IMG/VR virus record: IMGVR_UViG_3300047562_001072
Span: 1-36,041 of that record
Reading direction: 5' to 3' (one strand)
Length of the DNA stretch: 36,041 bases
Source: a virus
Under the pieces are notes generated by a model. It was not told where the DNA came from, made no database searches, and saw nothing but the letters and a program-made list of their open reading frames with translations. Below are positions 23,709-31,852 of this stretch, in pieces (position 1 is the stretch's first letter; each line of letters starts with the position of its first letter). Both the position numbers and the translations under genes were made by a program.

Positions 23709-24068
23709 ATGCATGAATGTCAATGGTTTGCGGATAAAAATGAACAAGCGATTCAAAAAAGTGAACTCTTTGTTCAATTTTTTATTGACGCCAGTTCAGG
23801 GTTGTGGAATAGTTTGAACATCGACAGCGACAAGAACATTAAACATCACACACACATGACACTGACACAGGAATTCATTAAAAACCAATGGCACATGATC
23901 GACGTTAACACAATGCCTTCCAACGGAACAACACCGCGTGCGTTGGATGGGTTGAGTGTGGTTGACTCTGATACTAGTTTGCAAAACCTGCGCAGGCGGA
24001 TAGCCAAAACGCATCAGTACAATTCATTCAAATGCGTTTGGATGCCGAATAAAAAATCAGCAAAATAA
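23709..24068 (+). CDS. unknown small protein
   Basis: 119 aa starting at the ATG right after the terminator T-run (TTTTTTAATG). An in-frame ATG at 23691 would fall within the terminator stem. It is hydrophilic, with several His, Asn and Ser residues and an N-terminal MHECQWFADKNEQA. A transcript starting beyond the terminator, or read-through, is needed. No family is recognised. Confidence 0.55.
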   Translation: MHECQWFADKNEQAIQKSELFVQFFIDASSGLWNSLNIDSDKNIKHHTHMTLTQEFIKNQWHMIDVNTMPSNGTTPRALDGLSVVDSDTSLQNLRRRIAKTHQYNSFKCVWMPNKKSAK

Positions 24069-24072
24069 CATC

Positions 24073-24237
24073 ATGGAAACGAGAAAAATAACCATAAGGG
24101 AAATTATATCTGATTATAACCTCTGGATGGAATACGTTGACCCGTCCGGGGTTGACTCAGAACAAAAATTTAACTCCATGTCATTCGGCGAAAAGCTGGA
24201 CATCATCAAAGTTTGTTTTGGCATTGAAACTATATAA
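24073..24237 (+). CDS. 54-aa unknown protein
   Basis: Starts at an ATG four bases after the previous stop. The product is METRKITIREIISDY..., acidic in the middle (EYVDPSGVDSEQ) and ending LDIIKVCFGIETI. It is too short for domain calls. Tight spacing supports it being real. Confidence 0.45.
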   Translation: METRKITIREIISDYNLWMEYVDPSGVDSEQKFNSMSFGEKLDIIKVCFGIETI

Positions 24238-24241
24238 CGCC

Positions 24242-24349
24242 ATGGAAACACTCAGATTTCTCATATACTCGCTGTTATGCGCGTTACGTCCAGGCCCGTT
24301 AGATGAGGCCGCCAGCGCCGACCAGGACGCCACAGAATTTCCGCGTTAG
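24242..24349 (+). CDS. 35-aa micropeptide, possible
   Basis: Starts at an ATG four bases after the previous stop, following the same spacing. A hydrophobic N-terminal half (LRFLIYSLLCAL) is followed by a polar half. It ends at the first hairpin of the structured non-coding region. Low confidence because of length. Confidence 0.3.
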   Translation: METLRFLIYSLLCALRPGPLDEAASADQDATEFPR

Positions 24350-24525
24350 CGGATTCCCACCATACCAACCAAAACTCACCTCGCTCCGGCTGGATACCGG
24401 GGCGAGGCTTCAAAAAGATCCTGCGCGTTAGCGGTTGAAACCTTTAACGCCTGGGATCACCGGGGCAGGCATGAAGCCTGTTAATTTAGTCCACGCCGAT
24501 TGAGCGAGTCACTCGAATCGGCAAA

Positions 24526-24553
24526 CCCTGCCTCCCGCGTGGGATGTGCAGGG
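24526..24553 (+). repeat. 28-nt hairpin unit A
   Basis: Outer stem CCCTGC/GCAGGG and an inner TCCC/GGGA, followed by ACAATTT. Same length and layout as units B and C, which lie 102 and 198 nt downstream; sequence is more divergent. Confidence 0.5.
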
Positions 24554-24627
24554 ACAATTTCCGGCGCAATAACGCGCCAGAAAAACTAAACATAAATCTT
24601 GGTCGATTCAGTGTTTAGTCACCTATT

Positions 24628-24655
24628 CCCGGCTCCACGTGTGTGGATGCCCGGG
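24628..24655 (+). repeat. 28-nt hairpin unit B
   Basis: Outer CCCGG/CCGGG, inner TCCA/TGGA around the loop CGTGTG, ending GCCCGGGA. It shares loop and outer stem with unit C, but the inner stem differs on both sides. Confidence 0.7.
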
Positions 24656-24723
24656 AGGTTAACGGATTTCGAGGTAATTCCGCCTCGATAAAAAGAAACA
24701 AATCTCAAGCGTTTCTTTAACAA

Positions 24724-29269: not shown

Positions 29270-30322
29270 ATGGCAGGTGACTGGATAAAAATAAGGCATG
29301 CGCTTCCGAGATCCGGTCATGTTGTCCGCATTATGTCCGCTTGCGATGCGGACAAATTGCGGACGCTTGGCGGACTTGTGTCCGCATTACTTCTTTTTGA
29401 CGAGCAGACACAAGACGGACACTTGTCCGGTTATAGTCTTAAAGCGTTTGATGAGACGGTCGGATTAACCGGTTTAGGCGCTGCTTTATGCGATCCGAAA
29501 GTGGGGTGGATGGAGGTTGATGAAGACGGTTTAACGCTGCTTGATTGGGATAAACACAACGGTTCCAGCGCGAAAAGACGGGCAAATGACGCGACCAGGA
29601 AAGCAAACAAGCGATCCGAAAAACCTGTCCGCATTTTGTCCGAAAAAAAACGGACAGTTTGCGGACCAGAGAAGAGAAGAGAAGAGAAGAATATTATTAA
29701 CTCTCTCTCAGCGCGCGCGCGGGAAGATCCAGTTTTGGATCTGGACCAGGACGCCAGACAGGAGGCCTCGGTAGTTATTCCTCCATGCACAAAAAACGAG
29801 GCGGATCAATTTGGAGCGCAAACGGGCATTCCTGGCGATTTGGTGGCCGAGTGGTATGAGAAGCACGACAGCAACGATTGGCGGCCTTACGGAGGCAATC
29901 CGCCGATGACAACGAAGTCTTGGAAGTTTGACCTGAAGAACTTTTGGAAACACAGAAAGGCAAAGGACGATGAAAGACGAAATGCAGGAACATCAAATCA
30001 GAGAAATGGAGCGGAGGCGGTTGGAAAAGTTAGAATCAACGCGGCGAACGACAGAAACAACTTCGTCGATCAAGCCACACTTGACGCATACGCTCGAAAA
30101 GATCGAATCAAGGAAATCGCGGATCTTATCGGATTATGGATCAACACCGAACGATGGGGATCATGCACAACGCTCCATGAATGGTACGACGACCCGCTCA
30201 TGCCAGACATCATCAGCTTCATCAGAGAAAAGGATGAACAACTTTTCAACAAAATTTCAAAACTCGGTTTTATTGATGCAGAATCCGGGAGGTGGACTGG
30301 ACCGACTCGGCCAACACGTTGA
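29270..30322 (+). CDS. replication initiator-like protein (lambda O position)
   Basis: 350 aa. The N-terminal ~110 residues (DWIKIRHALPRSGHVVRIMSA ... LLLFDEQTQDGHLSGYSLKAF ... VGWMEVDEDGLTLLDWDKHNGSSAKRR) match the pattern of phage replication proteins with an N-terminal winged helix. A charged linker follows, then a C-terminal helical domain that may bind the loader. A DnaC-like gene overlaps its end, as O and P pair in lambda. The gene holds an iteron array and purine/AT tract, so it probably contains its own origin. TTTTAATCATG start. Confidence 0.7.
   Translation: MAGDWIKIRHALPRSGHVVRIMSACDADKLRTLGGLVSALLLFDEQTQDGHLSGYSLKAFDETVGLTGLGAALCDPKVGWMEVDEDGLTLLDWDKHNGSSAKRRANDATRKANKRSEKPVRILSEKKRTVCGPEKRREEKNIINSLSARAREDPVLDLDQDARQEASVVIPPCTKNEADQFGAQTGIPGDLVAEWYEKHDSNDWRPYGGNPPMTTKSWKFDLKNFWKHRKAKDDERRNAGTSNQRNGAEAVGKVRINAANDRNNFVDQATLDAYARKDRIKEIADLIGLWINTERWGSCTTLHEWYDDPLMPDIISFIREKDEQLFNKISKLGFIDAESGRWTGPTRPTR
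29324..29384. repeat. GTCCG/CGGAC iteron cluster 1
   Basis: Six copies of GTCCG or its complement in 61 bp: 29324, 29335 (GTCCG), 29349, 29360, 29371 (CGGAC), 29380 (GTCCG). Same-orientation copies start 11 bp apart, about one helical turn. The copies fall in all three codon frames, so the protein sequence does not force them. Confidence 0.8.
29416..29429. repeat. GTCCG/CGGAC iteron cluster 2
   Basis: CGGAC, 4 nt, GTCCG: the same facing pair, with the same spacing, as the last two sites of cluster 1. Confidence 0.65.
29627..29700. repeat. iteron cluster 3 with purine/AT tract (candidate origin core)
   Basis: Two GTCCG (29627, 29638) six apart, eight As, then two CGGAC (29651, 29662) six apart: an exact dyad. 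The 16-mer at 29627 differs by one base from that at 29324. Directly after come a 23-nt purine run of GAAGA repeats (29668-29690), ATATTATTAA (29691-29700), and then CT and GC alternations. Iterons plus an adjacent easily melted tract inside the initiator gene match the lambda ori plan. Confidence 0.7.
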
Positions 30323-30812
30323 AGACTGGGCCAGGCGCGTTTATCGAAACGAGCGACAAGGGACGATGATCATTCTCCACGGACCAAGTGGATGCGGGAA
30401 AACTATGGCTCTGGATTTTATGTTTTCCTGGGCGCGCCGAACCGCGTCCACAATGGAATGGCAAAGCAACTGGCATCATGTCCCTTCATCCATGCGCGTG
30501 AGTTGGCCGAAAACATGGTTTAGGCTGGAGCGGGATCGGGGCGCAGAGAATTATCTCTTGGAAGACATCCAGACAACGGACATACTGTTTCTGGATGACA
30601 TCGGGGCAGAGGCGGACCGATTTAAAAGCAAAGAGTCAACTGCCGTTTTGCAATCTATCTTGGACTACCGCCAAAAGAAATTCACTTTTATCACAACCAA
30701 CATTAAAAAGGAGATGTGGCAGGACCATTGGGACATGCGAGTGTCTGACCGGCTCAGGCGTAACAGCGCGGTTGATGTCAGTCTCTGGCACATGCGATCA
30801 TTTAATCTTTAG
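30276..30812 (+). CDS. DnaC-like helicase loader ATPase
   Basis: 178 aa. AAA+ ATPase that would load the host replicative helicase. Walker A is GPSGCGKTM near residue 36-44 and Walker B ILFLDDIGAE near 107; a sensor-like FITTN follows. ATG at 30276 is chosen because it precedes the whole ATPase domain; the frame is open further upstream within the initiator gene, but that part has no domain. It overlaps the initiator by 47 nt. Confidence 0.85.
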   Translation: MQNPGGGLDRLGQHVEDWARRVYRNERQGTMIILHGPSGCGKTMALDFMFSWARRTASTMEWQSNWHHVPSSMRVSWPKTWFRLERDRGAENYLLEDIQTTDILFLDDIGAEADRFKSKESTAVLQSILDYRQKKFTFITTNIKKEMWQDHWDMRVSDRLRRNSAVDVSLWHMRSFNL

Positions 30813-31136: not shown

Positions 31137-31166
31137 ATGTTGAAAACTAAAACAAAAAAAATATGA
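31137..31166 (+). CDS. 9-aa leader peptide overlapping mom start, possible
   Basis: ATG at 31137 encodes MLKTKTKKI and stops at TGA 31164-31166, which overlaps the ATG of the next gene. Four of nine codons are Lys (AAA). Ribosomes stopping here could restart at the Mom-like gene. Short leader, so low confidence. Confidence 0.3.
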   Translation: MLKTKTKKI

Positions 31167-31852
31167 GCATGATTAAACAATTTATTATTCAAAAAATACC
31201 AAGCAAAGAAACTAAGCCATGGTTGCTCAATCGTCATTATGCACGAAGGATGTGTTCTATTTCTTATGCGTTTGGAGCGTATAGAGAAGGAATAAATTAT
31301 GGAGTGGTAACGTATGGAACTCCTTCAAGCCCAAAATTACGCGAAGGAATAGCAGGAAAGGAATGGGCAGAGTATGTTATAGAGTTGAACCGTCTTTGTT
31401 GTGTAAGTGAAAAAAATCTTGCCAGTCGTTTAGTAAGTAAATCTTTAAAAATGCTTCCAAAGCCTTCTATAGTTGTCAGTTATGCCGACATAAAGCAAGG
31501 GCATATTGGATATGTTTACCAAGCTGCAAATTTTTTATATACTGGACTTAGCGCGAAACGAACTGATTGGAAAATAAAAGGCCAAGAGCATCTTCATGGA
31601 ACAACCGTTGCGGATTTAAGCAGGGGGCAAAATAACCGAGTTGAATGGATGCGCAAAAAGTACGGTGAAGATTTTTATTTAGAAGAACGAACACAAAAGC
31701 ATAGATATGTATATATATGTGCCAGCAATAAGCAAAAAACAGAAATAATTAAATCTTTAAAATACACTATTCATCCATACCCAAAAGGGGAAAGTGTTAA
31801 ATACCATGCTGAAAATAAAATTGAATTGCAAACGACTTTTTCATTAAAATAA
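31163..31852 (+). CDS. Mom-like DNA adenine modification protein
   Basis: 229 aa. Pattern of the phage Mu Mom family (GNAT-fold, adenine to N6-carbamoylmethyladenine): PWLLNRHYARRMCSISYAFGAY, GVVTYGTPSSPKLREGI, VIELNRLCCVSEKNLASRLVSKSL, VVSYADIKQGHIGYVYQAANFLYTG. Such a modification blocks many restriction enzymes. The gene is distinctly AT-rich and has no GATC site, unlike its neighbours, which points to recent transfer. Family is recognised from the sequence; the exact chemical product is inferred. Confidence 0.82.
   Translation: MSMIKQFIIQKIPSKETKPWLLNRHYARRMCSISYAFGAYREGINYGVVTYGTPSSPKLREGIAGKEWAEYVIELNRLCCVSEKNLASRLVSKSLKMLPKPSIVVSYADIKQGHIGYVYQAANFLYTGLSAKRTDWKIKGQEHLHGTTVADLSRGQNNRVEWMRKKYGEDFYLEERTQKHRYVYICASNKQKTEIIKSLKYTIHPYPKGESVKYHAENKIELQTTFSLK

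Follow-up and report, generated by a model that had tools for sequence, protein, structure and literature searches.

A putative replication origin inside a phage initiator gene, with iterons whose sequence follows helix residues of the encoded protein

Few phage initiator families have a mapped origin, and it is an open question how an initiator changes jointly with its many scattered binding sites. The locus studied here lies in a phage record of 36,041 bases, the whole stretch that was analysed and which we call the window; end repeats were looked for in this record and none were found. Twelve copies of GTCCG or its complement CGGAC fall inside a single open reading frame, which raises the question of whether a phage carries its replication origin, as an array of short iterons, within its own initiator gene. 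A sequence-only reading of the window had proposed such a role by inference, describing the array as an independent version of the lambda layout with a different and shorter repeat. Our analysis makes it likely that the array is the phage origin, with binding, melting, loading and origin activity all remaining inferences. The features discussed below are collected in Table 1.

Table 1. Features of the initiator locus in the window
Feature	Position	Strand	Remarks
Replication initiator gene, 350 aa	29270..30322	+	phrog_2509 replication initiation protein, E 1.5e-41 over residues 1-264
N-terminal domain code, residues 1-117	29270..29620	+	Presumed iteron-binding domain (no binding data)
Iteron block 1a, six GTCCG/CGGAC copies	29324..29384		29324+, 29335+, 29349-, 29360-, 29371-, 29380+
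Iteron pair 1b	29416..29429		29416-, 29425+
Helix 99-117 code	29564..29620	+	Strongest well-filled correlates of iteron type
Presumed base readers	Residue 107 (D) 29588-29590; residue 111 (K) 29600-29602	+	Inferred from word association
Iteron block 2	29627..29666		29627+, 29638+, 29651-, 29662-; dyad around A8
Period-5 purine run (AGAAG)n	29668..29691	+	One base after last inverted iteron
AT-only stretch AATATTATTAA	29690..29700	+	Presumed start of unwinding
C-terminal domain code, about residues 175-242	29792..29995	+	Confident model segment; presumed loader or ssDNA contact
DnaC-like helicase loader gene	29970..30812	+	phrog_50, E 2.4e-20; PF00004 AAA; overlaps initiator gene end

The gene that holds the array encodes a winged-helix-like N-terminal domain, a linker and a C-terminal domain. 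Its match to an initiator family and the loader gene that overlaps its end support the proposed origin role, which is still inferred; RecE-like, RecT-like and methyltransferase genes lie upstream. The N-terminal domain is conserved across the family and was modelled by AlphaFold with a pLDDT of about 94-98 for residues 11-90 and 75-89 for residues 91-117. The C-terminal domain matched DnaT (primosomal protein 1) weakly (E 0.35), and the record of the Salmonella phage epsilon15 itself notes an HHpred match to DnaT. A Pfam search with the 350-aa protein returned no family at E 0.1, hence neither a lambda O nor a RepA_N model; the RepA_N model matched 0 of 28 N-terminal domains of the family, and NCBIfam and Pfam scans of these 28 domains gave no consistent family. 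Foldseek found weak winged-helix matches (best E 0.46 for the whole protein and 0.19 for the N-terminal domain alone). The best VIA Z scores were 6.0 for the whole protein, against ribosomal chains over the C-terminal part, and 5.0 for the N-terminal domain alone, while RepA_N entries scored Z 4.5-4.6 over 81 residues with an rmsd of 3.4-3.5, tied with unrelated winged-helix rows. A profile search of solved structures with the initiator gave nothing useful. Because these matches are weak, we name no fold family beyond winged-helix-like. Elsewhere in the window, a Mom-like DNA modification gene (31163-31852; PF25680, E 1.2e-39) stands soon after the replication genes, and the stretch 23990-24700 has no long open reading frame (between 24068 and 24739 none reaches 80 aa) and shows, by eye, several GCGTTA/CGTTAG-like words and a repeated CACGTGTGTG(A/G)..GCCCGGGA motif.

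What the sequence-only reading had described in the array held, with two qualifications. All twelve copies in its three clusters were found, as were the adjoining purine run and AT-only stretch, and the copies occupy three codon phases (4, 1 and 7 copies), as its claim of retention at the DNA level through different codon frames requires. The 11-bp step that it had given for same-strand copies holds exactly for five pairs, the remaining neighbours being inverted pairs. The exact dyad that it had seen in the third cluster (block 2) holds as a positional dyad, in which the inner and outer pairs share one centre; the A8 between the inner pair is not itself self-complementary. This inner pair is also one base closer than the 13 bp usual in the family. 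Block 1a occupies the position of block 1 in other relatives of the GTCCGC type, pair 1b stands where relatives of other word types have their block 1, and the position of block 2 is common to all types.

The number and phasing of the copies exceed what codon use would give. In 20,000 synonymous shuffles of the gene the mean count was 5.1, and 12 copies were reached in 21; the five same-strand pairs at 11 bp (shuffle mean 0.23, maximum 3) were reached in none. In a test that presupposes no word, the highest count of any 6-mer was 9, against a maximum of 6 in 1,000 shuffles. Outside the gene region, the densest 350 bp of the window hold 5 copies, and all four copies of TGTCCGCA in the window are in the initiator gene. 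Cumulative GC skew, another check made, shows no turn at the array and runs monotonically across the window.

Relatives were drawn from three scans: one gave 45 viral loci, and from the other two we kept the top 80 among 550 confirmed viral loci and the top 80 among 116 confirmed genome loci. Both top-80 sets were found with the peptide MAGDWIK alone, so the sample favours proteins that start in this way. With the window counted once there were 206 loci, 202 of them with a gene of at least 140 aa, and reduction at 90% identity over the first 140 residues left 120 representatives. For each we counted the commonest 6-mer within the first 480 nt and set this count against that in 1,000 synonymous shuffles. 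An in-gene word excess was present at p<=0.05 in 100 of the 120 genes and at p<=0.01 in 85, and in 57 it was never matched by the shuffles; the other 20 had no significant excess (p<=0.05). The winning words are few, and they differ between relatives (TGTCCGC, TGTAACGC, TGTCACGC, TGTAGACG and TGTCCCC). Typing with fixed patterns assigned 56 of the 120 genes to GTCCGC, the window's word and the commonest in this sample, 32 to GTAACG, 11 to GTCACG, 4 to GTCCC(C/G), 4 to GTAGACG and one each to a GTCGGAC-like word and GTGACG, leaving 11 without a type. Further words, such as GTCACA, TGTCGCC and GTTGCGC, were seen among untyped relatives (loci L316, L347, L349, L351, L352, L385 and L391).

Many relatives have thus swapped the word and kept its spacing, position, phasing and purine tract, a finding that goes beyond the sequence-only reading. 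Neither outcome that would have counted against that reading was seen, since synonymous shuffles did not reproduce the phasing and relatives retained the layout. Across the 109 typed genes, with their 733 sites, any two same-strand neighbours not more than 40 bp from each other are spaced 11/12 bp (208), 22-24 bp (51) or 33-35 bp (12), with no other distance found. Convergent neighbours are 13 bp apart in 189 of 203 cases, 24 bp in 7 and otherwise spaced in 7, and divergent neighbours 10 bp apart in 15 of 26. Shuffled genes retained a mean of 161 sites, and in them each main spacing occurred about 5 times. Since the words had been picked from the typed genes themselves, the counts favour the real data; the spacing was not so chosen. 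The 7-bp word GTAGACG takes 12-bp steps in 13 of 13 cases, so that the gap between cores stays at 5 bp. Block 1 lies at nt 30-120 of the gene in the GTCCGC type or 120-210 in the others, and block 2 at nt 330-420 in all types.

The purine run is the second conserved element. In the relatives the array ends with an inverted iteron, and a period-5 purine run comes next, usually with a single base in between. AGAGAAGAGAAG was found in 106 of the 120 representative genes, where it encodes TREEKRR-like (71), PEKRREE-like (31) or QRREEK-like (4) peptides in three codon frames, and in an enlarged set AGAGAAGA was found in 227 of 238 relatives (codon frames 152/67/8), preceded directly on its 5' side by AC[C/T] in 186 of the 227. 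Since the run is read in three codon frames, it is the DNA and not the peptide that is conserved. Across the family the AT content reaches 0.60 over the run's final 20 nt and 0.59 over the 20 nt after it; the gene averages 0.44, and beyond this point the value is 0.39. The AT stretch is short, and more AT-rich parts exist within the gene. Searching viral contigs for 21 bases of the run gave at least 119 stretches, of which 80 were readable: 60 in MAGDW genes, 7 in genes cut by a contig end and 13 others, most of these, judged by eye, apparently variant starts of the same family.

Several observations concern the surroundings of this run. Loci L232, L257 and L272 encode other or divergent initiator-like proteins with the same purine run, and L232 and L272 have repeated words of their own upstream of it; it is possible that the in-gene layout extends beyond the phrog_2509-type family. 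In place of the AGAAG run, the Rac, BUCT554, phi3.2 and ZX5 loci have GAGGAA repeats, Xanthomonas phage SAC has GAACAA repeats and Vibrio phage 1.211.A has GAGTAGA-like ones. In 39 of 227 genes (for example L002, L025 and L130) the 110 nt that follow the run contain a C-rich pair such as CCCCCCCTAACCCCCC, which is read in three codon frames; 0 of 227 genes have one in the 110 nt beyond. This pair might be a further origin element.

These data bear on the explanation that repeats and purine run are mere by-products of protein constraint, of codon bias or of slippage in a charged linker. In its favour, the run encodes a linker rich in Lys, Arg and Glu, in which slippage could make repeats. Against it, synonymous shuffles keep the protein and its codon use and lose both counts and phasing, the copies are spread over different frames and both strands, and the run keeps its sequence while its frame changes. 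We consider this explanation very improbable.

The word follows residues of the initiator itself, the second finding beyond the sequence-only reading. On a tree of the 109 typed N-terminal domains, built on few columns and with many open forks, the word needs 11 changes, against a mean of 46.5 when shuffled, and a value as low was obtained in 0 of 200 shuffles. Residues 107 and 111 head the list of associations between residue and word, with many others ranking below. They are four apart in the predicted helix 99-117, and hence are predicted to share one face. Their codons rarely coincide with the repeats: codon 107 overlaps an iteron core in 4 of 206 genes and codon 111 in none of 206. Residue 114 also tracks the word; in 35 of 206 genes, however, an iteron core runs into its codon, and for this reason it was not relied on as a reader. 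One ranking placed columns 75/76 first without a single same-type difference; we took this for an artefact of near-empty alignment columns and left them out. Correlation with type is also seen at many other N-terminal columns, partly through relatedness and partly because block 1 itself encodes residues there.

A rule that predicts the word from residues 107, 110 and 111 was written on the 120 genes and fits 104 of the 109 typed ones. It was then applied to 324 further loci, from which 26 without gene or anchor were dropped and, at 90% identity or more, 123 were removed against the training genes and 57 against each other. This left 118 held-out genes, 98 typable and 20 not. The rule called 91 of the 98 and was correct in 84 of these 91, and the nearest neighbour by residues 1-98 was correct in 76 of the 98; in the 22 cases where a call by the rule disagreed with the neighbour's type, the rule was right in 16, the neighbour in 5 and neither in 1. 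That helix residues predict the repeat type is as expected if the initiator binds the repeats.

The association can be resolved to single bases in the 189 of 238 genes in which words were found de novo. Base 3 of the word is C in 112 of 112 genes with K111, A in 39 of 41 with V111, C in 23 of 30 with Q111 and G or T in 4 of 4 with M111, and base 4 is C in 93 of 99 genes with D or E107 and A in 34 of 35 with T107. Repeat letters are thus tied to helix residues across genes. Counting independent pairs of tree paths over all branches, supported or not, 9.8 of 10 agree for residue 111 (p 0.002) and 6.4 of 8 for residue 107 (p 0.03), and none oppose for either residue; supported branches alone leave 4 and 5 pairs, too few for significance (median p 0.125 in both tests). 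There are exceptions: D107 together with Q111 goes with CA (3), GA (1) and CC (1), and several S114 genes use GTCACA regardless of residue 107. The contacts that such pairings would imply, Lys or Gln against the G of a C-G pair, Val against the methyl group of thymine and Asp or Glu against the amino group of cytosine, are of familiar kinds. Gene pairs also exist that share 65-73% identity over residues 1-98 and yet have different repeats.

Two other readings of the array can be weighed against these results. In the first, a host protein and not the phage initiator binds the repeats, and host factors do take part in many phage origins. Against this, relatives from Pseudomonas differ among themselves (GTCCGC in L153, GTCACG in L181 and L199, GTAACG in L190 and L202), and the word correlates with initiator residues; we regard a host binder as highly unlikely. 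In the second, the initiator or another phage regulator binds the sites as operators that control its own expression, with the origin elsewhere. In-gene arrays can act as operators, block 1 is near the gene start, and the epsilon15 record annotates a repressor site just downstream of the homologous gene. Against an operator role, block 2 sits some 340-400 nt into the gene whatever the type and faces the purine run in every case, the choice of word tracks residues of the initiator protein, and the purine tract and its frame-free conservation would be left unexplained. We judge it unlikely, if less so than a host binder.

The origin reading extends to known phages. Among sixteen named phage or prophage loci examined that carry the family domain, the word agrees with the residue rule in 15: epsilon15, SPN1S, BUCT711, phiPSA1, PAN70, VW-6S, Carin1, TL-2011b, Rac MN652886, CP2, Olaya, BUCT554, ST11-OXA245phi3.2, ZX5 and SAC, Carin1 and SAC having 3 sites each only. 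Vibrio phage 1.211.A breaks the rule, with GTCACA found where GTCCGC was predicted. Paenibacillus phage Harrison and Faecalibacterium phage FP_Lagaffe are distant matches without such a word, and were excluded from this count. Epsilon15 resembles the window in carrying GTCCGC in the same two blocks (eight sites, at nt 55, 66, 79 and 101 and at nt 334, 345, 358 and 369), the same purine run, and D107 with K111; unlike the window, it has no DnaC-like gene directly following in its record. In the stretch of that record examined, IHF and repressor sites are annotated and no origin is.

The Rac prophage of E. coli offers a comparison within one locus, since its ydaU gene has at least two forms, those of MG1655 and MN652886. 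The MN652886 allele is a family member, with a MASNWIK start, GTAACG iterons and the adjoining loader gene ydaV. The MG1655 allele differs: its N-terminal domain is a different one, annotated DUF1376, and its word count is not significantly raised, 257 of 1,000 shuffles reaching its maximum. Between the two loci compared (L540:1228-2016 and L550:6120-6977), ydaT is for the most part 80-92% identical; identity then breaks down across the region of the N-terminal domain and iterons, and recovers to about 90% or above from ydaU nt 550 onward. The N-terminal domain and the in-gene origin, as we infer it to be, therefore differ as one block, and the C-terminus and ydaV stay. We read the two alleles as a natural exchange of domain plus putative origin. 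Of 5,426 E. coli genomes, 1,403 contain the ydaU end and 683 the family-type start. The Rac prophage of MG1655 has an active origin, oriJ (PMC3945230), whose position relative to ydaU was not found in the literature searched.

Origins inside initiator genes are already known, in lambda and in RepA_N plasmids. The locus has three features of the lambda O layout, namely phased in-frame repeats beyond codon effects, an AT/purine tract and an adjoining loader gene. As here, the lambda initiator gene holds its own iterons and the loader gene is next to it; the lambda record annotates four iterons at nt 349-433 of O, about where block 2 stands in this family, and an AT-rich tract adjoins them (PMC7466680). 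The lambda iterons are four repeats of 18 bp, whereas here there are 6-7 bp repeats in two blocks on an 11/13-bp lattice; lambda has an AT tract in place of a period-5 purine run, and the initiator described here matches no lambda O Pfam model. The description as an independent and shorter-repeat version of the lambda layout fits these data. RepA_N of pSK41 has a DNA-binding N-terminal domain of ~120 residues, a separate C-terminal domain and an origin inside the rep gene that codes for the linker, and in pPR9 the N-terminal domain plus origin has been exchanged (PMC5703833). The domain layout and in-gene position are thus like those of pSK41, and the pPR9 exchange resembles the Rac alleles; the present family differs in having no Pfam RepA_N match and weak fold similarity. 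What sets the present locus apart is a different initiator family by Pfam, a different and shorter iteron, the strict 11/13-bp lattice, the two blocks, the frame-independent purine tract and the partial residue-to-base code. A search of the open-access literature, judged by titles and the starts of abstracts, turned up no description of an in-gene origin in this family; subscription papers were mostly outside this search, and a prior description cannot be excluded.

We favour as the most likely reading, itself an inference, an origin of lambda O-like type whose specificity evolves through paired changes of helix and repeats and through exchange of the DNA-binding domain together with the origin. 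Under this model the N-terminal winged-helix-like domain would bind TGTCCGC iterons in both blocks, the lattice (11 bp on the same strand, 13 bp when convergent) would line the bound copies up on one helix face, and the last iteron would set the distance to the purine/AT tract. The bound array would then strain and melt the AT-rich end by the purine run, and the C-terminal domain and the DnaC-like loader encoded downstream would recruit the replicative helicase. That binding, opening and loading take place is an inference by analogy with lambda O (PMC7466680) and pSK41 (PMC5703833). Against an origin stand the relatives without word excess, the absence of a GC-skew turn, the short AT stretch, the exception in 1.211.A and the off-by-one inner pair of block 2 in the window, and there are no binding or replication assay data.

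A bolder version of this model joins three parts, and we lean, by a small margin, towards their holding together. Residue 111 would set base 3 and residue 107 base 4 of a GTNN word (K111 with C, V111 with A, M111 with G or T; D or E107 with C, T107 with A). A change of type would come about either by paired changes of the helix and all repeat copies or, by an alternative route, by a cassette swap of the N-terminal domain with the in-gene origin, the loader-recruiting C-terminus staying in place. The frame-free (AGAAG)n run would be a strand-opening or loading element common to all types.

If these inferred roles are right, one gene would carry the protein, its binding sites and the melting tract. 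Natural gene pairs with differing repeats make the residue-to-base code testable with short probes and small domains, and origins and replication compatibility groups may become predictable from sequence in many prophages, including epsilon15 and the E. coli Rac alleles.
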